Shown here piece after piece: positions 12,659 to 22,278 of a stretch of DNA of 23,062 nucleotides. The position numbers and the translations under genes are program-made. Numbering within the stretch: position 1 is the first letter of the stretch; each line of letters begins with the position of its first letter. Under the pieces are notes generated by a model, which was given only the letters and a program-made list of their open reading frames with translations, ran no database searches and was not told the origin of the DNA. The stretch is from a virus, in IMG/VR virus record IMGVR_UViG_3300031669_000248, positions 1 to 23,062 of that record. One strand, given 5' to 3'.

Positions 12659-12796
12659 TTTAACTCTTTTTTACTAAAACTACTATTTTATAATTTGTTC
12701 TGATTTTCGAAGTAGTTCGTTTATTTTTGTAACTGTTTTCTATATATATTAATAACAAATGAATAGAGTTTGTTTTATTTTTTAAGGAGAAAATTA
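12659..12796. promoter_or_regulatory. divergent intergenic region with probable promoters
   Basis: This 138-bp gap separates the minus-strand tail operon from the plus-strand nucleic-acid operon, so promoters in both directions are expected. On the minus strand, TATAAAATA lies at 12692-12684, 26-34 bp before the HAD ATG; it fits a sigma70 -10 or a T4-late-like TATAAATA box. On the plus strand, the run TATATATATTAATA at 12741-12754 with TTGTAA at 12727-12732 is a weaker candidate. The whole region is very AT-rich, so the box assignments are tentative. Confidence 0.4.
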
Positions 12797-13102
12797 ATGT
12801 GGTTAGATTCCAGAGAAATATCAGGATGGTCATATAATTATTGTTATTATGTTGAAGATGATCTAAACATTAGAAGTCTTATAACAGATTCTCAATGGGC
12901 ATATTATTATTGCAAAAATGTCAAAGATATACCAGAAGTTAGAAAATATATAACAGTTTCTATGTGGGCATATTATTATTGTAAAGTTGTTAAAGACATA
13001 CCAGAAGTTAGAAAATATATAACAGAGTCTAAATGGGCATATCGTTATTGTAAAGAAATAAAAGATGAGTCAGAAGTTAGAAAATATATAAAGGAGAATT
13101 AA
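12797..13102 (+). CDS. WAYYYCK tandem-repeat protein
   Basis: A 101-aa protein. I chose the ATG at 12797 because AAGGAGA lies 6-7 nt upstream; earlier in-frame starts lack a site. Almost the whole protein consists of four 23-residue units. The last three are close copies built on WAYYYCK-x-VKD-x-PEVRKYI and the first is diverged (WSYNYCYYVEDD). At DNA level the period is 69 bp (TGGGC at 12896, 12965 and 13034). The units look helical and would stack as a small solenoid. Similar Trp-Ala-Tyr repeat proteins occur in other phage genomes as I recall them, with no assigned function. It is the first gene of the plus-strand operon, 1 bp before the CCA-adding enzyme gene. Confidence 0.75.
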   Translation: MWLDSREISGWSYNYCYYVEDDLNIRSLITDSQWAYYYCKNVKDIPEVRKYITVSMWAYYYCKVVKDIPEVRKYITESKWAYRYCKEIKDESEVRKYIKEN

Positions 13103-13103
13103 A

Positions 13104-14444
13104 ATGGAAGCAACACCAAAATACATAGTTGATAGGCTTTGCCAAAATGGGTTTGAAACCTATGTAGTTGGTGGAGCTGTTAGGGATTTTTTGAGAGGTG
13201 TAGAAGCAAAGGATATAGATATTGCTACATCTGCAACTTCAGATGAAATTGAAGAACTATTCAAAGAACAAAAAATTAAAACGGTAGGTAAATCATTTAA
13301 AGTTGTTTTTGTGGATGGTGTAGAAGTAGCAACTTTTAGAACTGATAAATATTTTGGATTGAGTGATAAGAATGTTGAAATTTCAGTTGCTAAAACAATA
13401 GGTGAAGATTTATCTCGTCGTGATCTTACAATAAATGCTATGGCAAGATGTCAATATACTGGAGAAATAATTGACAGATTTGGAGGGAAAGAAGATTTAA
13501 GAAATAAGGTAATCAGGTTTGTAGGTAATCCTGAAAAACGCATTTATGAAGATCCAAATAGAATTATAAGAGCCTGTAGATTTTTAGCTCTTATAGAAGG
13601 TAAGTTTGATGAAGGTACTAAAGAAGCTTTAAAGAAATATTCTTACTTTGTTGAAAAGTATATTGATGTGGAGAGAATTCAAATTGAAATTTTAAAAAGT
13701 ATGAATTATAGAAAACCATCTATATTCTTTTTAGCTCTTCATGAGATCGATGTTTTAAAGTATATTTTTCCAACTTTGGACAGGTGTTTTGATCATGATC
13801 ATGGACCATATCATAATGAAGATATATTTACACACAGTATGATGTGCGGAGATAATATATCAAAAAAATATCCATTGTTACGACTTGGTGGATACCTTCA
13901 TGACATTGGTAAAGTAATAACAGCGTGTCAAGATATAGAAACAAGAGAGTTTCATTTTGCTGGTCATGAAAAAGCTGGAGCTGTTGTAGTTAGAAAGGAA
14001 TTAGAACATCTTAGATTTTCTAACGACGATACTAATTATGTATCATTTATAAACGAGTTACATATGAGAGATTTTAGATCACCAAAATCAATTAGAAGAA
14101 CTCTTAAAGCATTAGCTGATCATGGAATTAATTATAAGGATATTGTGCGATTGAAATTTTCTGATAGAAAGTCAAATTTGTTTCGTGGAAATTATGAGTT
14201 GTCAAAAGCAAGAGAACTTATTTCTGATATTAGAACTGAATTAACGAGGGAACCACCAAATAATTTTAAACATTTGAAATTAAATGGTAATGATATTATG
14301 AAAATAACTGGTATCCCTCAAGGAAAACTCATCGGAGATATTTTAAAATTCTTGCTTCAAAATGTTGTTGATGTTCCTGAACTAAATAATATATATAACC
14401 TTAAACAATTAGTTTTTAAGTATTTGAAATTGGAGATTCTATGA
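13104..14444 (+). CDS. CCA-adding-type tRNA nucleotidyltransferase with HD domain
   Basis: A 446-aa class II nucleotidyltransferase of the tRNA CCA-adding / poly(A) polymerase family. The head domain shows VVGGAVRDFLRG with the metal-binding pair in KDIDIATSA (DxD, about residues 37-39), then RRDLTINAMA and EDPNRIIRACRF, the family signatures for catalysis and nucleotide or RNA binding. An HD-domain region follows (HNEDIFTHSM near 235-245, GGYLHDIGK near 260-268, then GHEKAGA), as in bacterial CCA enzymes with a metal-dependent phosphohydrolase domain. The expected role is to build or repair tRNA 3' CCA ends; CCA versus A addition cannot be decided by eye. ATG with AAGGAGA upstream. It is encoded in one operon with an RlaP-like protein and a DNA ligase. 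Confidence 0.85.
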   Translation: MEATPKYIVDRLCQNGFETYVVGGAVRDFLRGVEAKDIDIATSATSDEIEELFKEQKIKTVGKSFKVVFVDGVEVATFRTDKYFGLSDKNVEISVAKTIGEDLSRRDLTINAMARCQYTGEIIDRFGGKEDLRNKVIRFVGNPEKRIYEDPNRIIRACRFLALIEGKFDEGTKEALKKYSYFVEKYIDVERIQIEILKSMNYRKPSIFFLALHEIDVLKYIFPTLDRCFDHDHGPYHNEDIFTHSMMCGDNISKKYPLLRLGGYLHDIGKVITACQDIETREFHFAGHEKAGAVVVRKELEHLRFSNDDTNYVSFINELHMRDFRSPKSIRRTLKALADHGINYKDIVRLKFSDRKSNLFRGNYELSKARELISDIRTELTREPPNNFKHLKLNGNDIMKITGIPQGKLIGDILKFLLQNVVDVPELNNIYNLKQLVFKYLKLEIL

Positions 14445-14611: not shown

Positions 14612-15025
14612 ATGAAAATGAAAGGAAAAAGATCAGAAGGTGCTATTGATAAGGATTTACAGAGGTTGATTGCTGATTTAACATTAAGCAAAAAAGATGA
14701 TCATCCTCAATATGGTTACAAGATAGATTTCTATGTAAATGATGTATCTAGTAAAGTTATTCTAGATTTTATTAAAGTACTATTTTGCAGGATACAACCA
14801 TCTGATAAACCAGAGACATTACTCCGATTTATTGACGAACTTACAGTAGGTGATATGGAAGAAATGAGAAAAGTTTTTGGAGTAGATGGTCCTTTGTGTG
14901 ATTGGCAATTTTGGAAAGACATGTATTCGAAAACGGGAAGAAAACAGAATGGTGATTTACATTCATCAGTAGATTTAACATCTGAGAAAGAAAAAGAGAA
15001 GGTTAATGTTAAATCTACCGAATAA
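14612..15025 (+). CDS. hypothetical protein
   Basis: A 137-aa protein that I do not recognise. ATG with GAGG 7 nt upstream. Residues 1-100 look folded and mixed alpha/beta (YGYKIDFYVNDVSSKVILDF, then LLRFIDELTVGDMEEMRKVF), and the tail from about 112 on is hydrophilic and Ser/Lys/Glu-rich, probably disordered. It overlaps the start of the RlaP-like gene by 20 bp, so the two are likely co-translated, and it follows the possible structured RNA. This close pairing hints at a partner or accessory role for the nucleotidyltransferase, inferred from position only. Confidence 0.55.
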   Translation: MKMKGKRSEGAIDKDLQRLIADLTLSKKDDHPQYGYKIDFYVNDVSSKVILDFIKVLFCRIQPSDKPETLLRFIDELTVGDMEEMRKVFGVDGPLCDWQFWKDMYSKTGRKQNGDLHSSVDLTSEKEKEKVNVKSTE

Positions 15026-16076
15026 TTTTAAACTAATATCTAAATTTATAACAGGAAGTCATCTTTATGGAACAAATACAGAATTATCTGATACAGATAT
15101 AAGAGGTGTGTTTATTCCAAGCGAGGAATATTTTTATGGTTTCTTGAATCGAGTAGAACAACCCAAAGATGACGTAGTAGATCTTGAGTTTTATGAAATT
15201 CGAAAATTTCTCATTCTAACACTTGATAATAATCCAAATATTATAGAGTTTTTATTCATACCAGATGAGTTTATCCTTCATAAAACTAAAGAGTGGGATG
15301 ATATTATTTTAAATAGAAGGTATTTTGTTTCTAAAAAATGCAAACATACTTTTTTTGGATATGCTAATTCACAGTTAAAAAGAATACAAAGACATAGAAG
15401 TTGGTTATTAAACCCGCCGAAGAAACAACCAAATAGAAGTGATTATGGTCTTCCTGAAAACAAATCATTACTACCAAAAGATCAGATCGGAGCGTTTAAT
15501 GCATTATTATCTACATATTTAAAACAAATAGGAAAACATCATAAATTAGCAGTTGAGTTAGAAAAAATGGAAGAAACAGTATCTTATATTTCTGCAATTC
15601 AAAATTTGGTTAATATAGACTATAATGCAGTTTCAAAGATAATGACTGTTTCTGATAATTTGATTGAGGCTCTTGATAGAGAGAAAGCTTATAGTAACTC
15701 AATGAGGGAATGGAATTCTTATCAAAACTGGAAAAAGAATAGAAATCCAGATAGAGCTATACTGGAGAAAAAATTTGGTTATGATACAAAATTTTGCATG
15801 CATTGTTTCAGGTTGATTTCAGAGACAGAAGAACTTCTCTTAAGTGGTAAGATTAGTTTTCCAAGACCTGATGCTGATTTTTTGATTGAAATTAGAAATG
15901 GAAAATATAGTTATGAATATTTATTAGAGAAACTTCAACATGTAGAAGATGATTTTGAAGAATTATATTTAAAATCATCGCTCCCAGATAAACCAAACAG
16001 AACTATAATTAATAAATTATGTATAGATATAGTTAAACCTCTATTAGAAAGTCGTACGATATGCGATCTATGTTAG
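15006..16076 (+). CDS. RlaP-type nucleotidyltransferase (RNA repair, polymerase beta superfamily)
   Basis: A 356-aa protein. The N-terminus carries the minimal nucleotidyltransferase signature: ITGSHLYGTNTELSDTDIRG, with GS at residues 17-18, D29 and D31 as metal ligands, and an acidic strand (VVDLEFYEI, D60/E62) as a candidate third ligand. This pattern and the length match the family annotated as RNA repair pathway DNA polymerase beta family (RlaP), whose members often sit with RNA ligase or other RNA-repair genes; the exact reaction is not settled to my knowledge. The C-terminal two thirds are helical and Lys-rich, suited to RNA binding. The ATG overlaps the previous gene by 20 bp, with AGAAGG just upstream. 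The CCA-type enzyme two genes upstream supports a tRNA or RNA end-repair role. Confidence 0.75.
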   Translation: MLNLPNNFKLISKFITGSHLYGTNTELSDTDIRGVFIPSEEYFYGFLNRVEQPKDDVVDLEFYEIRKFLILTLDNNPNIIEFLFIPDEFILHKTKEWDDIILNRRYFVSKKCKHTFFGYANSQLKRIQRHRSWLLNPPKKQPNRSDYGLPENKSLLPKDQIGAFNALLSTYLKQIGKHHKLAVELEKMEETVSYISAIQNLVNIDYNAVSKIMTVSDNLIEALDREKAYSNSMREWNSYQNWKKNRNPDRAILEKKFGYDTKFCMHCFRLISETEELLLSGKISFPRPDADFLIEIRNGKYSYEYLLEKLQHVEDDFEELYLKSSLPDKPNRTIINKLCIDIVKPLLESRTICDLC

Positions 16077-17061: not shown

Positions 17062-18855
17062 ATGAATAGAATAGATGAACTGGTTTTAGAAATAACTAAA
17101 CATGATAAACTTTATTGGGAAAAGAGCGACCCAATTATTTCTGACATTGAGTATGATAAATTAGTAAATGAACTTAAAGAACTTGATCCTTCAAATGAAC
17201 TTTTAGTTAAAGTACATACTCCAGTAACGAATGAAAAAAAGATTCGTCATAAAATATCAATGTTGAGTCTTGATAAAGTATATTCATTTAAAGATCTTGT
17301 AAAATGGTGTAGAAAAGTTGCTAGATCAAAAAATGAAATGTTCAAAAGTGAAGTAAAATATGATGGTGTATCTGGAGATTTAAGAGATGGAGTTTTGGCT
17401 ACAAGGGGAGATGGTATTGTTGGCGAAGATGTATCAGATAAACTTCCTCTAATAAAAGTTTTTTCAACAACTGGATCTAAAGATGTTAGAGGTGAAATTC
17501 TTTTTAAAAAATCTAGTTTTAGAGAAAATATAAATAAGGTCGTCAGAAAGGGTGGCGAATCTTATAAAAATGAAAGGAATGCAGTTGGAGGAATATTAAA
17601 TAGAGATGATATTGATTATAGTGTTGGCGAAATATTAACTCTGGTAGATTTTCGTCATCTTGGTGTAAAATTGAATTTAAATGACATAGAAAATCTTGGA
17701 GAAGAAGGAATAAGGATAATTGAAAGAGATATTAAGATGTTAGATTATCCTGCTGATGGTATTGTTTTTAAAATTGATGATCAGGAATATGCAGAACAAT
17801 TAGGATCAACAAGACATTATTCAAAATCTGAGATAGCATTTAAATTTGCCAATCCATTTGCATTTTCAAAGTTGAATGGAGTAACATGGAGTGTTGGTAA
17901 ACATACAATTACTCCCATTGGTAATGTAGAACCAGTAGAAGTTAGCGGAGTTACAATTCGAAATGTCAATCTTCATAATATGAAAAATATAAGAGATATG
18001 GATATTCATATAGGAGATGAATTGAAGATTGAACGTGCTGGTGATGTAATACCTTTTGCAGCTGGAGTATCACAAGGACAAGAAAGAGAATGGATTTATA
18101 TTACTAATTGTCCTGCTTGTGACTCTGATGTTAGATATGAAGATCCAGAAATGGTATGTATTAATCCTGATTGTAGGGGAAAGCATTTAGTTAAACTTAT
18201 GGATGCTGTTGTTAGAATTGGTATTGAACGACTTGGTGAACCAACTCTAAGAAAAATGATAGATGATTTGTATGTATATAATTTAGTTGATATTTTTCAT
18301 TTAGATAAAGATGATATCATCACGTTAGAAGGATTTGCTGAGTCCTCAACTAATAATCTTTTTGGTGAGATTCAAAAAGTTAAAGAAAATGGAGTTTTTG
18401 AATGGCAGATTCTTTCGTCTGTAAATCTTGAAGGAATAGGAAGATCTTTGAGTGCTGATTTGTTAGAAGGTAGATCTTTGGAAGAAATTAGAAAATATAA
18501 TATTGATCAATTTGAGGCAATTCAAGGAATTGGTCCTGAAAGAGCTAAAGTTCTTTTTAATGGTTTAAAAGATAATCAAGAATATATTGATCGTCTTTTA
18601 AAAATTTTACCCATTAGAAATGTTGAAGCAAAAGGAGACCTGATGAAAATATGTTTTACTGGAAAATTCCATGAGACGAAATCTTATTATTATGATTTGA
18701 TTAAAAATAAGGGATATGATATTTGGGAAAAAGTTACAAAAGATCTTGACGTGTTAGTTGTAGCTGATCCAAGTAAAGGGTCGAGTAAGCAAAAGAAAGC
18801 TGAAAATCTTGGAATTAAGGTAGTTTCTATTGAGGAACTTTTGAATAATCTTTAA
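17062..18855 (+). CDS. ligA: NAD-dependent DNA ligase
   Basis: A 597-aa LigA-type ligase, somewhat shorter than the roughly 670 aa of bacterial LigA. Domain Ia (NAD/NMN binding) covers residues 1-60 with PIISDIEYDKLVNEL. The adenylation motif EVKYDGVSG gives catalytic Lys99, followed by ATRGDGIVGEDV. An OB-like region follows, then a four-Cys zinc finger (C351, C354, C367, C372), helix-hairpin-helix motifs (LEGIGRSLSADLL, IQGIGPERAKVLF) and a C-terminal BRCT domain from about residue 528 (ICFTGKF). All parts needed to seal nicks with NAD are present. ATG with AGGAGA upstream. It would serve phage DNA replication or repair and probably ends the nucleic-acid operon, followed by a hairpin. Confidence 0.93.
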   Translation: MNRIDELVLEITKHDKLYWEKSDPIISDIEYDKLVNELKELDPSNELLVKVHTPVTNEKKIRHKISMLSLDKVYSFKDLVKWCRKVARSKNEMFKSEVKYDGVSGDLRDGVLATRGDGIVGEDVSDKLPLIKVFSTTGSKDVRGEILFKKSSFRENINKVVRKGGESYKNERNAVGGILNRDDIDYSVGEILTLVDFRHLGVKLNLNDIENLGEEGIRIIERDIKMLDYPADGIVFKIDDQEYAEQLGSTRHYSKSEIAFKFANPFAFSKLNGVTWSVGKHTITPIGNVEPVEVSGVTIRNVNLHNMKNIRDMDIHIGDELKIERAGDVIPFAAGVSQGQEREWIYITNCPACDSDVRYEDPEMVCINPDCRGKHLVKLMDAVVRIGIERLGEPTLRKMIDDLYVYNLVDIFHLDKDDIITLEGFAESSTNNLFGEIQKVKENGVFEWQILSSVNLEGIGRSLSADLLEGRSLEEIRKYNIDQFEAIQGIGPERAKVLFNGLKDNQEYIDRLLKILPIRNVEAKGDLMKICFTGKFHETKSYYYDLIKNKGYDIWEKVTKDLDVLVVADPSKGSSKQKKAENLGIKVVSIEELLNNL

Positions 18856-18906: not shown

Positions 18907-19959
18907 GTGGAAAAAGATCAAGAAATGAGAGTAAGAATCATTAAAGATCCAGATACTAAAATTGCAGTAGTTGGAGGTTTTGACAAATCATTCAGGAACG
19001 ATAAATATGAATTATTGTTTAATACGAAAACTGGAGTTGAAGTTCTTTACGGCATAGATGATAATCCAGATCCTTTTGTTTTAGAATTACCATCGATGAT
19101 AGACTGCGGAATTATGGGTCATTGTTTAAATAAATGCTCATTTTGTTATCAGGGTGATAATAATGAACCTAATATGAAATTAGAAGATTATAAAAAAATT
19201 ATAGACGAAACTAAACACCATGTAAATCAAATTGCTTTAGGTGGTAGAGGTGATCCAAATTTACATGAGAATTTCAGAGAAATAGTTGAATATTCAAAAA
19301 ATAATAATGTAGTTCCAAACTATACAACAAGCGGAATTAATCTAACTAATGAACAAGTTGAAATATCAAAAATGTGTGGTGCTGTAGCAGTTTCTGATTA
19401 TGTTAGATCGTATACATATAAATCACTAAAAATGTTTATGGATGCTGGAATAAAAACGAATATCCATTTTATTTATTCTACGCAATCACATGATAGTGCT
19501 ATTGAAATACTTAAAGGAAAAGATATATGGAATGGTGATGTTGATTTTGAAAGATTAAATGCTGTTGTATTTTTATTATTTAAACCTCAAGGAAGTGGCA
19601 AGTCGTTAGGAAGATGGGTTCCTTCATATCCTATGTTTAAAGAATTTTCTGCAAATCTTAAAAATCAGAATTTGAAATTTAAAATTGGGATGGACAGCTG
19701 TATGATCAACCATGTAGCATCAGTTGCTAATTTTTCTGAAGTTGAACAAATGGCAATAGATTTTTGTGAATCATCCAGAATGTCTGTATACATAACTCCT
19801 GATATGAGATTGGTTCCATGTTCTTTTGCTGATCATGATGAGTACGGTGAAAGTATTCGTGATAAAACGATATATGAAGTATGGAACAATTCTGAATCGT
19901 TTAGATTATTTAGAAAGAAGTTAGAAATAAAACCTGATAGATGTCCACTTAATTTGTAA
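18907..19959 (+). CDS. radical SAM protein with C-terminal cysteines
   Basis: A 350-aa radical SAM enzyme. The cluster motif is C73-x3-C77-x2-C80 (GHCLNKCSFCYQG), which binds the 4Fe-4S cluster that cleaves S-adenosylmethionine; C67 lies just before it. GGRGDPN at 112-118 is in the position of the SAM-binding Gly motif. After the barrel are four further cysteines (C265, C287, C305 in LVPCSFAD, C346 in DRCPL), compatible with an auxiliary Fe-S domain of SPASM/twitch type, as in enzymes that modify peptides or proteins. I chose GTG at 18907; AAAGG lies about 12 nt upstream, so initiation may be weak. ATG 18925 is the alternative. The next gene starts 12 bp after the stop, and three NSSSS-leader proteins follow, so it may act on them. 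Substrate unknown. Confidence 0.85.
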   Translation: MEKDQEMRVRIIKDPDTKIAVVGGFDKSFRNDKYELLFNTKTGVEVLYGIDDNPDPFVLELPSMIDCGIMGHCLNKCSFCYQGDNNEPNMKLEDYKKIIDETKHHVNQIALGGRGDPNLHENFREIVEYSKNNNVVPNYTTSGINLTNEQVEISKMCGAVAVSDYVRSYTYKSLKMFMDAGIKTNIHFIYSTQSHDSAIEILKGKDIWNGDVDFERLNAVVFLLFKPQGSGKSLGRWVPSYPMFKEFSANLKNQNLKFKIGMDSCMINHVASVANFSEVEQMAIDFCESSRMSVYITPDMRLVPCSFADHDEYGESIRDKTIYEVWNNSESFRLFRKKLEIKPDRCPLNL

Positions 19960-19971
19960 GGAGAATTGATT

Positions 19972-20370
19972 TTGAGTTATAGTAATCACTATAGTTTTTA
20001 TTCTTCCATTGATAAACCTTTGGATGTTATTTCTAGTTTTTATTTTCATTCTCTTTTAGAAATAAATGAAATGCGCGGTAGAAGAATATGTAAACCACCA
20101 GAAAATTATGATGGTGGTCTTTATATTCACATACCAAGTTTATTTAGAATGTTTTGTTTCAAAGATTGGTTCAATACTAGAGTTGATTTAATATGCGCAT
20201 CTAGGATGATTAGTGACCATTTTTATGAAGAAATGAATATACTTATTAAAACTTTTTTAACTGAAAAACAATCTGCGGATATTGATTATGATGTTATATT
20301 TTTTGATATGTTTAAAGAACAATATAATAAAAGAATTGATTTAGAAAGGTTGGATTATTGGAGGAGATAA
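19972..20370 (+). CDS. hypothetical protein downstream of radical SAM gene
   Basis: A protein of about 132 aa, not recognised. I prefer the TTG at 19972 because GGAG (19960-19963) is 8 nt away; the TTG at 19966 would be only 2 nt away. The N-terminus is Ser/Tyr-rich (SYSNHYSFYSSIDK) but lacks the NSSSS signature of the next three genes. The body is aromatic and helical with a few cysteines. It lies 12 bp after the radical SAM stop and 3 bp before the first NSSSS gene, so it is in the same transcript. It could be a partner or another substrate of the enzyme, inferred from position only. Confidence 0.6.
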   Translation: MSYSNHYSFYSSIDKPLDVISSFYFHSLLEINEMRGRRICKPPENYDGGLYIHIPSLFRMFCFKDWFNTRVDLICASRMISDHFYEEMNILIKTFLTEKQSADIDYDVIFFDMFKEQYNKRIDLERLDYWRR

Positions 20371-20373
20371 AAA

Positions 20374-20904
20374 TTGAAAATTAAAACAGATTTTGTAACA
20401 AATAGTTCAAGTAGTTGTTTTATAGTTGCTTGGGATAAAGAAGTAAAAACATATGAAGATGTGAAAAAATATATAAGATCAGAAGTTCACGCTAAAATTG
20501 TGTATGGGGATATTTTGAAACAACAACCAATGATATTACAAAATAATAATTTTGATTTTGATATGAATCCTGTCTTAAAAAGTATAACAAATAGAATATC
20601 TAGTGAAATAAGTTCTGGTTGGTTTGATGGTTATAGAGATTCATTGGATGCAGTTTATGAGTATGAACGAAGACACAACTGTGGCTTTACAGAAGCCAGA
20701 AAAAAATGTAAAGATAAAATTGATGAAGTTGAGGAATATAATAAGAATTTAGCGATTGATAAAGCTAAAAAATTTATAGATCAAAATGTGGGAAAAGTTG
20801 TATATATGTTTTCATATGCTGATGAAGATGGAGCTTTATATTCTGAAATGGAACATGGTGATATTTTTGTACAACTTCCACATATAACAATAAGTCATCA
20901 TTAA
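20374..20904 (+). CDS. NSSSS-leader protein 1
   Basis: A 176-aa protein starting on TTG, with a strong GGAGGAG 7 nt upstream. The N-terminus is MKIKTDFVTNSSSSCFIVAW. I recall this opening from many otherwise unassigned bacterial proteins, and it recurs in the next two genes. The middle is helical and charged. The C-terminus runs from a Lys-rich helix (IDKAKKFIDQ) into VYMFSYADEDGALYSEMEHG and ends LPHITISHH. The C-terminal block resembles that of the next protein, so the two look like full-length paralogues. No membrane segment or signal peptide. Function unknown; a modified peptide-like N-terminus is one hypothesis given the radical SAM gene. Confidence 0.7.
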   Translation: MKIKTDFVTNSSSSCFIVAWDKEVKTYEDVKKYIRSEVHAKIVYGDILKQQPMILQNNNFDFDMNPVLKSITNRISSEISSGWFDGYRDSLDAVYEYERRHNCGFTEARKKCKDKIDEVEEYNKNLAIDKAKKFIDQNVGKVVYMFSYADEDGALYSEMEHGDIFVQLPHITISHH

Positions 20905-20914
20905 GGAGTTCAAA

Positions 20915-21463
20915 GTGAAAATTAAACGTGATTTTATTACTAACAGTAGTTCAACCAATTTCTATTTTATCTTTAAAGGTGACCACATTGACTTATATCA
21001 AAGATTACTTGAACATAAACATGAATTCGACCTATCTTATGATACATTTGAAGAGTTGGTGTTCAATATTACTACTTGGGATGTAATTAGAGAAATAGAT
21101 AAAGTTATTAGATCGAATGATTCAGATTTATGGTTATTAAAAAATGTTACAAATATAGATCATATCATAGAGACTTTTGAAGATGATAAAAAGATGTTTT
21201 TTGATCTATATAAAAATGGAAGTAAATATTCAAAAACTTTACATGATATTTATTATAAAGAAAAAGCTGAGACTATACAGAAAAGAACTCAACTTCTTAA
21301 AGAAGCTAAAAAGAAGGGATTGTCTTCATATATAATGATATCTTTTGGAGATAATCATGGTGATGTTAAAGGGGATGCTGTCGGAACAACAATGGATTAT
21401 GCTGGAAGAAAGATATCTATTAATTGTCCAAGTTTTGTTGTTTTTACAGAACAGGATAGATAG
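20915..21463 (+). CDS. NSSSS-leader protein 2
   Basis: A 182-aa protein starting on GTG, with AAGGAG 6 nt upstream. The N-terminus MKIKRDFITNSSSTNFYFIF is the same signature as in the neighbours with conservative changes. The middle (residues about 30-115) is acidic and helical. The C-terminal part has a Lys-rich helix (LLKEAKKKG) followed by IMISFGDNHGDVKGDAVG, which aligns in type and position with FSYADEDGALYSEMEHG of protein 1. It lies 10 bp after the previous stop and 12 bp before the next start. Function unknown. Confidence 0.7.
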   Translation: MKIKRDFITNSSSTNFYFIFKGDHIDLYQRLLEHKHEFDLSYDTFEELVFNITTWDVIREIDKVIRSNDSDLWLLKNVTNIDHIIETFEDDKKMFFDLYKNGSKYSKTLHDIYYKEKAETIQKRTQLLKEAKKKGLSSYIMISFGDNHGDVKGDAVGTTMDYAGRKISINCPSFVVFTEQDR

Positions 21464-21475
21464 GAGAAACTATTG

Positions 21476-21823
21476 ATGAAAATAAAAACAGATTTTGTGA
21501 CTAATTCAAGTTCAGCAAGTTTCTTGTTGTATATTCAGTCAAAGGGTGATAACTTAGAGGATTTTAAGGAGTCGTTTGAAAGATATATGACTTTTCATGC
21601 ATCAGTTATTAATGGGAGTGCAAGATTTTTTAACCCAAACGATATTGAACAAATTTCTTCTAATACTTTTTTAGTTAGTGATTGGACTTCAATGTATAAT
21701 TACTTTAATGATATTCCAGAATATATGAGGGATTTGTTGGTTATGTTTATTGTAGAAAAAGAAGATCTTAAAAGTGACTATGGTTTTCTGGGTTTTAAAT
21801 TTAAGATTGAAGAGGACCACTAA
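21476..21823 (+). CDS. NSSSS-leader protein 3
   Basis: A 115-aa protein. I chose ATG 21476 rather than the preceding TTG 21473 because it gives the same MKIKTDFVTNSSSASFLLY start as the paralogues and a good 9-nt spacing from GGAG. It keeps the N-terminal signature but lacks the Lys-helix and Asp-Gly block seen in proteins 1 and 2, so the shared part is essentially the leader. The rest is aromatic and acidic, ending LGFKFKIEEDH. The stop overlaps the next ATG (TAATG). Function unknown. Confidence 0.7.
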   Translation: MKIKTDFVTNSSSASFLLYIQSKGDNLEDFKESFERYMTFHASVINGSARFFNPNDIEQISSNTFLVSDWTSMYNYFNDIPEYMRDLLVMFIVEKEDLKSDYGFLGFKFKIEEDH

Positions 21824-22233
21824 TGACTTTAGGTATGAATAATGTTGTAGATAATGATAGTGATAATGAATATAGACTAGAGTATCATACTATAGTAGTA
21901 GCTATTCCTAATGATTTTGATATTGAAAAATATTTATCTTTGAAGGAACATGCTGGTATGTTTGGTAATAGATTGATTAAAAAAAGAGATTTAGTCTTTT
22001 TGTCCAATGCTGTAAGAGATTCTATAATATTTAGGTTGTTTTCTAATAAAATTCCGTACGAGACAGTTGCTTATTTTATCAAGATTTTAAAAGATCTTGG
22101 AGTTATTATGGATTTGGTTGCATCTAGTGTACAGACTTATAATATCGTTTCGATTAATGTTTTAGCAGAAGAGTTAAATAAGAAGGTTATAGAGGCTATT
22201 AAAAATATAGTGTCCGTAGAAGAATCGATGTAA
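21823..22233 (+). CDS. hypothetical protein, last gene of the radical SAM cluster
   Basis: A 136-aa protein coupled to NSSSS protein 3 by a TAATG overlap. It lacks the NSSSS signature. The first 20 residues are acidic and Asn-rich. The body has a beta-type segment (TIVVAIPNDFDIEKYLSL) and two amphipathic helices (YETVAYFIKILKDLG and LAEELNKKVIEAIKNI). No membrane segment. Not recognised. The overlap with the previous gene suggests that the two products are made together and may form a complex. The intrinsic terminator starts at its stop codon, so it ends the transcription unit. Confidence 0.6.
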   Translation: MTLGMNNVVDNDSDNEYRLEYHTIVVAIPNDFDIEKYLSLKEHAGMFGNRLIKKRDLVFLSNAVRDSIIFRLFSNKIPYETVAYFIKILKDLGVIMDLVASSVQTYNIVSINVLAEELNKKVIEAIKNIVSVEESM

Positions 22234-22270
22234 AAAATAGGTCAGAGAATTAAAACTCTGACCTATTTTT
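22233..22270. terminator. bidirectional intrinsic terminator
   Basis: AAAAATAGGTCAGAG (22233-22247) pairs perfectly with CTCTGACCTATTTTT (22256-22270) around an 8-nt loop. The GC-containing core GGTCAGAG is flanked by A-run and T-run, so a U-tract follows the hairpin on both strands. It separates the convergent radical SAM cluster and tail sheath gene, and would terminate both. Confidence 0.92.
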
Positions 22271-22278
22271 TTGTAACA

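Follow-up and report, generated by a model that had tools for sequence, protein, structure and literature searches.

The question raised by the locus

Why should a phage encode one radical S-adenosylmethionine (SAM) enzyme together with several otherwise unrelated proteins that open with the same N-terminus? This question is raised by the genes at positions 18907-22233 of IMG/VR virus record IMGVR_UViG_3300031669_000248, all of which lie on the same strand and form one unit, with gaps of 12, 3, 10, 12 and −1 bases. The stretch analysed, hereafter the window, comprises positions 1 to 23,062 of that record (23,062 nucleotides) and is a piece of a tailed phage, with a tail sheath, a baseplate wedge and a weak match to a tape-measure protein. 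From comparative sequence analysis we think, with a probability of roughly 0.7, that a dedicated enzyme modifies a short tag carried by otherwise unrelated proteins encoded beside it, and that the window holds the phage form of a widespread system. The enzyme and the tagged genes of the window are the following:

18907-19959, plus strand: radical SAM/SPASM enzyme of the tag-linked family, phrog_7293 (function unknown); from Pfam, PHROG, alignment A1 and the predicted model
20374-20904, plus strand: tagged protein N1, 176 residues, TTG start, phrog_7397 (function unknown); from open reading frame (ORF), PHROG and predicted model
20374-20421, plus strand: tag of N1, MKIKTDFVTNSSSSCF; from N-terminal comparison
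20915-21463, plus strand: tagged protein N2, 182 residues, GTG start; from ORF, with a tagged relative in locus L001
20915-20962, plus strand: tag of N2, MKIKRDFITNSSSTNF; from N-terminal comparison
21476-21823, plus strand: tagged protein N3, 115 residues, ATG start; from ORF, with a tagged relative in locus L001
21476-21523, plus strand: tag of N3, MKIKTDFVTNSSSASF; from N-terminal comparison

As a preliminary description of this DNA had noticed, the three tagged genes begin alike, with MKIKxDF[VI]TNSSS. Their first 18 residues have 12-14 identities in common, whereas the bodies, when aligned, cannot be told from shuffled sequence (z 0.9, −0.3 and −0.3). Because this identity precedes unrelated bodies, and because the association of this N-terminus with the enzyme recurs in many genomes other than the phage of the window, the resemblance is beyond chance.

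Linkage between tag and enzyme

The linkage was followed in both directions. Starting from the tag, viral and cellular collections were scanned with a degenerate DNA pattern for M-K-I-[KR]-x-[DG]-F-V-[TS]-N-[ST]x3, which gave at least 120 viral and at least 118 cellular stretches; the counts out of 120 and 118 given below are among the matches listed. The enzyme was recognised with a hidden Markov model (HMM) built only from the window enzyme and eight viral relatives, a family call being made at 40 bits or more. A family enzyme is present in the fetched stretch at 90 of the 118 cellular loci, on the same strand in 88 of these 90 and with a median gap of 6.5 bp, and at 55 of the 120 viral loci, on the same strand in all 55. 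Many of the stretches without an enzyme have the tag near their end. Whole-genome search of the 28 cellular misses located the enzyme outside the stretch in 20 (at least 80 bits), some of these genomes having partial copies only and one (G057) an enzyme in broken pieces. For 50 of the 65 viral misses the source records, 48 in number, were searched, and 30 of these records carry the enzyme, with 264-392 bits, the next best listed score being 46.

Starting from the enzyme, scans were made with sub-alignments A2 and A3 (the best 80 of 100 and the best 80 of 152 relatives); the loci were fetched regardless of the tag, but the aligned enzymes came from tag-bearing loci. The strict tag occurs in 117 of 137 distinct enzyme-first loci, the nearest one lying always on the enzyme's strand (117 of 117) and in 104 cases downstream. 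Tags thin out with distance: over the 10 kb surveyed there are 0.60 per kb up to 1 kb from the enzyme and 0.00-0.04 per kb beyond 7 kb. The strict pattern undercounted, as 6 of the 20 initial misses do have tags, which depart from the pattern at position 3 or 6; with a relaxed pattern the tag is found in 75 of 80 and 68 of 78 enzyme-first viral loci, that is 143 of 158 without de-duplication.

Genome samples served as controls. They were drawn evenly and are named after the group of their centre genome; a few genomes are shared by the two samples around G049, a Roseburia bin. In the class of G053 (Arenibacter, 149 genomes), the enzyme is found in none of the 148 genomes besides the centre, which had been selected by its tag. 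In the class of G049 (245 genomes) there are five genomes with the enzyme and three with the tag, all three within the five, and a fourth enzyme genome has a tag with a GTG start. In the family of G049 (397 genomes) the enzyme occurs in nine and the tag in five, again all within the nine; leaving out the centre, the tag is present in 4 of 8 enzyme genomes versus 0 of 388 others (hypergeometric p about 7e-8), and a looser pattern places it beside the enzyme in 6 of the 8.

The preliminary description had staked its reading on an enrichment of NSSSS genes near this enzyme family, and this enrichment is very strong in both directions. Chance or a compositional artefact as the origin of the pairing is ruled out by the locus counts, the genome samples and the tolerance test described below. 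Comparative genomics could hardly make a stronger case for a link between this enzyme and the tag.

The system is widely distributed. Of 50,697 annotated phage records, 172 have the enzyme; going by their names, almost all are Klebsiella, Enterobacter, Cronobacter, Citrobacter or Escherichia phages, with RB43 one of them; an N1-like protein is likewise found in 172 records, with a nearly identical tally of names. Up to 9 tagged genes stand near one enzyme, and Vibrio phage D479 has five tagged genes. The cellular tag set spans many bacterial groups as well as Lokiarchaeota, Thermoplasmatales and Methanosarcina bins, although bins may include virus contigs. Tagged contigs binned under these three archaeal names (L178, L152 and L220) each have the enzyme in the genome or stretch, and the multi-tag arrays of L178 and L152 suggest virus contigs. 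A phage-only system was rejected on account of the cellular loci with tag and enzyme. The modification-system layout that the preliminary description had placed in a phage stands as regards the link of enzyme and tag, with tag dialects that track the enzyme, and its phage framing proved too narrow. On an enzyme tree of 136 members the virus or cell origin changes only 7 times, so that the spread would be explained by rather few transfers from phage to cell or cell to phage. The Firmicutes-type enzyme of L138 gave no match among phage records at 1e-15.

Anatomy of the tag and of the tagged proteins

The tag comprises 16 residues with the consensus M-K-x-[RK]-x-[DG]-[FY]-V-[TS]-N-S-S-S-x-x-[FY]. 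A start codon lies just upstream in all 1062 matches to the tag core, and an element placed at the start codon in every case could in principle be a ribosome-binding or recombination sequence, that is, a cassette acting in expression or at the nucleic-acid level. The tag is, however, conserved as protein: its serines are encoded by both codon families (TCN and AGY), the codons for Phe, Val, Thr and Asn also vary, and the start codons of 696 tags are divided among ATG (642), TTG (27) and GTG (27). We consider a nucleic-acid cassette extremely improbable.

Which residues of the tag are indispensable was read from a tolerance test in which up to 4 mismatches were allowed anywhere, on 578 N-termini encoded at most 3 kb from an enzyme and on its strand. 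N10 is present in all 578, S11 in 577 and S12 in 575, with Phe or Tyr at position 16 in 576 and at position 7 in 573. Behind this N-terminus the proteins are very diverse, the 696 strict-tag proteins falling into 179 body clusters and the 819 distinct relaxed-tag proteins into 212 body families. Across 91 representative tagged proteins only M1, K2, N10, S11 and S12 are invariant and no body position is. Recognisable bodies in a Pfam search of the 91 include LRR_5 in 5 proteins and BRCT in 4. The median length of tagged proteins of at least 60 residues is 135 residues in viruses and 138 in cells.

The body of N1 belongs to the largest cluster found, with 73 members, all of them viral. In its family alignment (A6, 52 rows) E160 and H176 are invariant and D150, H161 and S174 nearly so, which, from this conservation, looks like an active or metal site. 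The predicted model of N1 is confident (predicted local distance difference test, pLDDT, 93.1), and its comparison by fold with solved structures gave no match at E ≤ 0.001. Residues 1-10 have a mean pLDDT of 61 and residues 13-20 form a strand; hence, in the model, the N-S-S core would sit at the junction between a loose arm and the folded body.

Tag dialects

Some positions of the tag vary in a concerted way. Positions 6 and 9 are coupled, with D-T in 403 cases, G-S in 255 and D-S or G-T in 23. Within a locus, position 6 is alike in 706 of 714 pairs of tagged genes with different bodies. Seven body families occur in both dialects, and here 120 of 121 pairs agree, compared with a mean of 58 and a maximum of 78 in 1000 permutations. 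For different bodies of the same locus, identity at positions 4, 6 and 9 is 98, 96 and 100%, versus 75, 52 and 55% after permutation; positions 5, 14 and 15 have weaker concordance, still above every permutation, and positions 3, 7, 8, 17 and 18 have no excess over permutation. The D or G state at position 6 changes 7 times on a FastTree enzyme tree split into 67 D and 66 G. Individual phages also have private forms of the tag, such as MKTRTGFVSN, five times in L369, and MK[RKS]R.TF[VA]SN, nine times in L387. Judged from these comparisons, the tag dialect is a property that follows the enzyme and not the body of the tagged protein.

The radical SAM enzyme

The window enzyme is translated from a GTG start into 350 residues, an in-frame ATG at 18925 being also possible. 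It matches Radical_SAM (PF04055, 4.8e-8) and SPASM (PF13186, 1.4e-5) above the curated Pfam cut-offs, and phrog_7293 with 1.1e-28. The CX3CX2C motif and the four C-terminal cysteines of the preliminary description are in place, the former as C73/C77/C80 and the latter as C265, C287, C305 and C346. In alignment A1, formed by 35 diverse members of the family, 24 columns are invariant, including the three radical SAM cysteines and C265, C287 and C305 (35 of 35 rows each), whereas C346 is kept in 24 of 35. The residue after C287 is acidic in all 35 rows, and it may play the part of the catalytic Asp of anaerobic sulfatase-maturating enzymes (anSME). As read in A1, the window enzyme lacks the CX2C...CX3C cysteines that are common in cellular members. 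The spacing of the first cluster varies over 134 members, with CX3CX2C in 72, CX7CX6C in 47, CX7CX2C in 6 and others in 9. The CX7CX6CY group consists of L247:6675-7763 and 46 other members, cellular and viral, and some phage members of the family have the first cysteine spacing stretched to about 17 residues. Members with altered spacing may escape the standard radical SAM models.

The predicted structure is of high confidence (pLDDT 93.2, predicted template modelling score 0.91). Its nearest solved structures are SuiB (Z 25.9 over 313 residues, 3.4 Å), SkfB (Z 23.9), PqqE and anSMEcpe (Z 20.6), with sequence identities of about 14-16%; the substrates of these four enzymes are peptides or proteins. 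No NCBIfam model was matched over its cut-off, the best score being 38.7 bits against cut-offs of 265 and 380, and no PqqD/RRE-type match was found in Pfam, a result that does not include a separate model search with the N-terminal strands. Scores set the family clearly apart from other radical SAM proteins: in 32 genomes full-length members score 319-432 bits, partial ones 67-172 and the rest 47-59.

Proposed mechanism and its weighing

The most economical reading of these data, we infer, would be a covalent change of the tag at N-S-S. The SPASM-type radical SAM enzyme would recognise the 16-residue N-terminal tag. Since positions 4, 6 and 9 are concordant within a locus and positions 10-12 are fixed, the enzyme would read the former and act on the latter, the near-invariant core N10-S11-S12. 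It would abstract a hydrogen atom from one of the core residues, most likely a serine, which the preliminary description had likewise pointed to as a radical SAM target, and the product would be an oxidised or cross-linked residue, the favoured candidates being a formylglycine-like aldehyde or a bond within the tag. The altered residue may then mark or activate each tagged protein, after which the different bodies would do different jobs: in phages these would be small proteins of unknown function, and in some bacteria and archaeal bins one family would be wired to an Avs-like STAND NTPase.

An alternative is that the tag is just a leader for docking of the enzyme, the modification taking place in the body, as in leader and core systems with one enzyme and many cores. 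The layout would fit, with one enzyme, several products, a constant N-terminus and a variable remainder, and so would the nearest folds, SuiB and SkfB being peptide-modifying enzymes. Nevertheless, such a system is at odds with the lack of any invariant body position in the 91 representatives, with bodies that are LRR or BRCT domains and with the well-folded prediction for N1. In addition, N10-S12 is the most invariant part of the tag and yet is not among the dialect positions, which suits a target better than a docking surface. We regard modification of the body as unlikely.

Several observations weigh against modification of the tag by its neighbouring enzyme. Two of the 55 viral loci with an enzyme (L058 and L090) also supplied seeds of the HMM. 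A family enzyme is missing from the genome at 8 of the 118 cellular tag loci, one of which has a 55-bit match only, and from 18 of the 48 tagged viral records, some of which are large, up to 122 kb, with no completeness given. Conversely, no tag was found in 15 of the 158 enzyme-first viral loci with the relaxed pattern, in the short contigs L007 and L008, which carry the enzyme, or in genome G266, which has it too. In the G049 family the strict pattern places a tag in only 4 of the 8 non-centre enzyme genomes, and 2 of the 8 have none within about 1.5 kb of the enzyme. In RB43 (HE858210.2) the two tagged genes, at 71933-72445 and 68049-68516, lie about 20 kb away from the enzyme, which is at about 92307-93452. 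Finally, lineage history could partly explain the concordance of tags within a locus; lineage alone is disfavoured because positions 3, 7, 8, 17 and 18 are not concordant.

Cellular contexts and STAND NTPase operons

Operon maps were drawn for 116 of the 118 cellular loci. The order c1, c2 (a small protein), tagged protein and enzyme is found in 19 of the 118, with L134 and L233 cut before the enzyme. The tagged proteins of 18 of these 19 operons belong to one body family, cluster 28, which has viral members too, and the 19th is a fragment of 44 residues. The protein c1 is a STAND-type NTPase that matches PADLOC Avs2 in 8 of the 9 scanned, with 5e-14 or better, L153 giving no match; some c1 proteins have a trypsin-like, DUF4062 or SMEK domain at the N-terminus. 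Ten neighbouring proteins were scanned with PADLOC, yielding restriction-modification for two (L193 and L233), HEC-06 (L134), an Avs1a-like MBL protein (L202) and pAgo (L173), with no PADLOC match for the other 5 of 10. The restriction-modification, HEC-06 and pAgo-like neighbours suggest defence islands. On plasmids of Agrobacterium, Rhizobium and Rhodobacter the order is SMEK-domain protein, small protein, tagged protein and enzyme (3 of 7 matches read), the SMEK-domain gene being split in the Rhizobium plasmid record; in Rhodobacter sp. CZR27 the four genes occupy about 810764-815219 of plasmid NZ_CP023549.1. In four further loci (L164, L173, L196 and L209) the tagged gene and the enzyme precede a c1-type gene, and the only one of these c1-type proteins that was scanned, that of L173, matches Avs2 with 5.5e-82. 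From gene order and similarity, a defence role for the operon of c1, c2, tagged protein and enzyme is likely, and one tagged family probably works together with an Avs-like STAND NTPase in an operon for anti-phage defence. With cluster 28 present in both cells and phages, the immune form might sense or mimic its phage counterpart or have been captured from it.

These operons also bear on another explanation, in which the tag is a docking or sorting signal, with the enzyme serving as a scaffold or with a host factor, the virion or an immune complex as the destination, while the substrate of the enzyme is a nucleotide or another protein. Tagged proteins that adjoin STAND NTPases in 19 loci would agree with it, as would the viperin structures among the structural matches of the enzyme. 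However, the dialect positions change with the clade of the enzyme, no other gene cluster in the cellular operon maps exceeds 23 of the 118 loci, and the window enzyme reaches only 22.6 bits with viperin_w_prok, whose cut-off is 180. A viperin identity was rejected on that score, the PADLOC pVip match being weak as well (2.2e-7). In our opinion a pure docking or sorting signal is quite improbable, and modification of the tag is preferred.

Other settings are found in cells. A tagged gene and the enzyme accompany a small protein, helix-turn-helix-like by reading, in 8 loci, mostly Lachnospiraceae by title. They stand beside ABC transporter genes in L133, L210, L216, L217 and L239 (by similarity, with Pfam on L216 only), which may point to a role of the tag system connected with metals or siderophores; the transporter gene of L216 is a FecCD-type permease according to Pfam. 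The enzyme occurs with long tagged proteins and LRR-type genes in the 10 loci that have cluster c3.

Other genes of the unit and of the window

The remaining features of the unit are:

19972-20370, plus strand: protein of 132 residues, function unknown, untagged, within the unit; weak match to phrog_34816 (0.0032)
21823-22233, plus strand: untagged protein of 136 residues, last gene of the unit; from ORF
22234-22275, plus strand: hairpin and T run resembling a terminator, closing the unit; read from the sequence

The preliminary description had the enzyme followed by three consecutive tagged genes in one tight unit. The tightness holds, and two genes are to be added to the succession: the unrelated gene at 19972-20370 stands between the enzyme and N1, and an untagged gene closes the unit. 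Searches of Pfam and NCBIfam with the 132-residue protein gave no match. Genes similar to the last one, with the motif VAIPxxFDIExYLS, were found by reading on the 3' side of the enzyme or of a tagged gene in L003, L006, L007 and L008. In L007 and L008 the enzyme is 52% identical to that of the window and is followed by the untagged gene with no tagged gene between.

Directly 5' of the enzyme, at 17062-18855, an NAD-dependent DNA ligase-like gene was recognised by reading. Further upstream there are an RlaP-like nucleotidyltransferase (15006-16076; PF10127, 1.1e-20), of a family associated with RNA repair, near it a CCA-adding/poly(A) polymerase-like gene with an HD domain (13104-14444), and a small protein of short repeats (12770-13102; WAYYYCK..KDIPEVRKYIT) with a weak NCBIfam match (E 0.09).

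Relation to known systems

The closest likeness is to SuiB (streptide) and SkfB (sporulation killing factor), which, as the window enzyme, combine radical SAM and SPASM domains; their substrates are made by the ribosome and are recognised through an N-terminal region. In contrast, the substrates proposed here have 115-182 residues in the window and unrelated bodies, with the tag at the extreme N-terminus. We do not class the system among those of peptide natural products because such systems work on short precursors, whereas these products are longer, with N1 predicted to be a folded domain and some others having LRR or BRCT domains. In the prochlorosin-type lanthipeptides, one enzyme, ProcM, serves many ProcA substrates with a conserved leader and a variable remainder; there the enzyme chemistry is unrelated and the products are short peptides.

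Anaerobic sulfatase-maturating enzymes oxidise Ser or Cys in a short motif of a folded protein, with the substrate consensus C/S-x-P/A-x-R. The fold of anSMEcpe resembles that of the window enzyme, as said, while the tag does not contain this consensus, and no sulfatase is among the 18 Pfam families matched by the 91 tagged proteins.

Regarding immunity, c1 resembles the Avs2 NTPase of Avs/AVAST, and the PADLOC Avs models matched cover NTPase and MBL proteins. To our knowledge, Avs systems have neither a radical SAM enzyme nor a tagged protein, whereas in the operons described above c1 comes first and is joined by a small protein, a tagged protein and the enzyme. A word search of the main text reporting a DUF4062 anti-phage system gave no mention of a radical SAM protein (PMC13174449). 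In the FtsH ternary vWA-MoxR conflict systems a radical SAM enzyme accompanies a peptide effector and has been proposed to modify the product of its neighbour (PMC7159879). Those systems are built on MoxR, vWA and FtsH ATPases, and the section that describes them mentions neither an NSSS tag nor a phage form (PMC7159879).

The recurrence of the pairing of enzyme and tag in phages, bacteria and archaeal bins, also beside genes resembling bacterial immune receptors, suggests a protein-modification system that is as yet undescribed, and searches limited to open PubMed Central text brought up no description of the pairing. The kind is already known, since radical SAM modification guided by an N-terminal sequence has precedents, and the tag system would be a variant of it.

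Implications

We would give even odds to a broader view, in which the system is an undescribed class of protein modification in phages, bacteria and archaea, a dedicated enzyme converts the N-S-S core of a universal tag, any protein may become a client by means of 16 residues, phages equip sets of unrelated infection proteins with the tag, and the STAND operons are built on cluster 28. As phage RB43 carries the enzyme and tagged genes, the question is directly testable in Escherichia coli. Hundreds of unannotated proteins that share this N-terminus gain a function-bearing handle, and the pairing predicts the enzyme, its set of substrates and the target site together. If the tag is indeed modified, the system would offer a radical SAM modification of modular type, applicable to any fusion protein. 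In the STAND operons, bacterial immune receptors would gain a modification step based on radical SAM chemistry.

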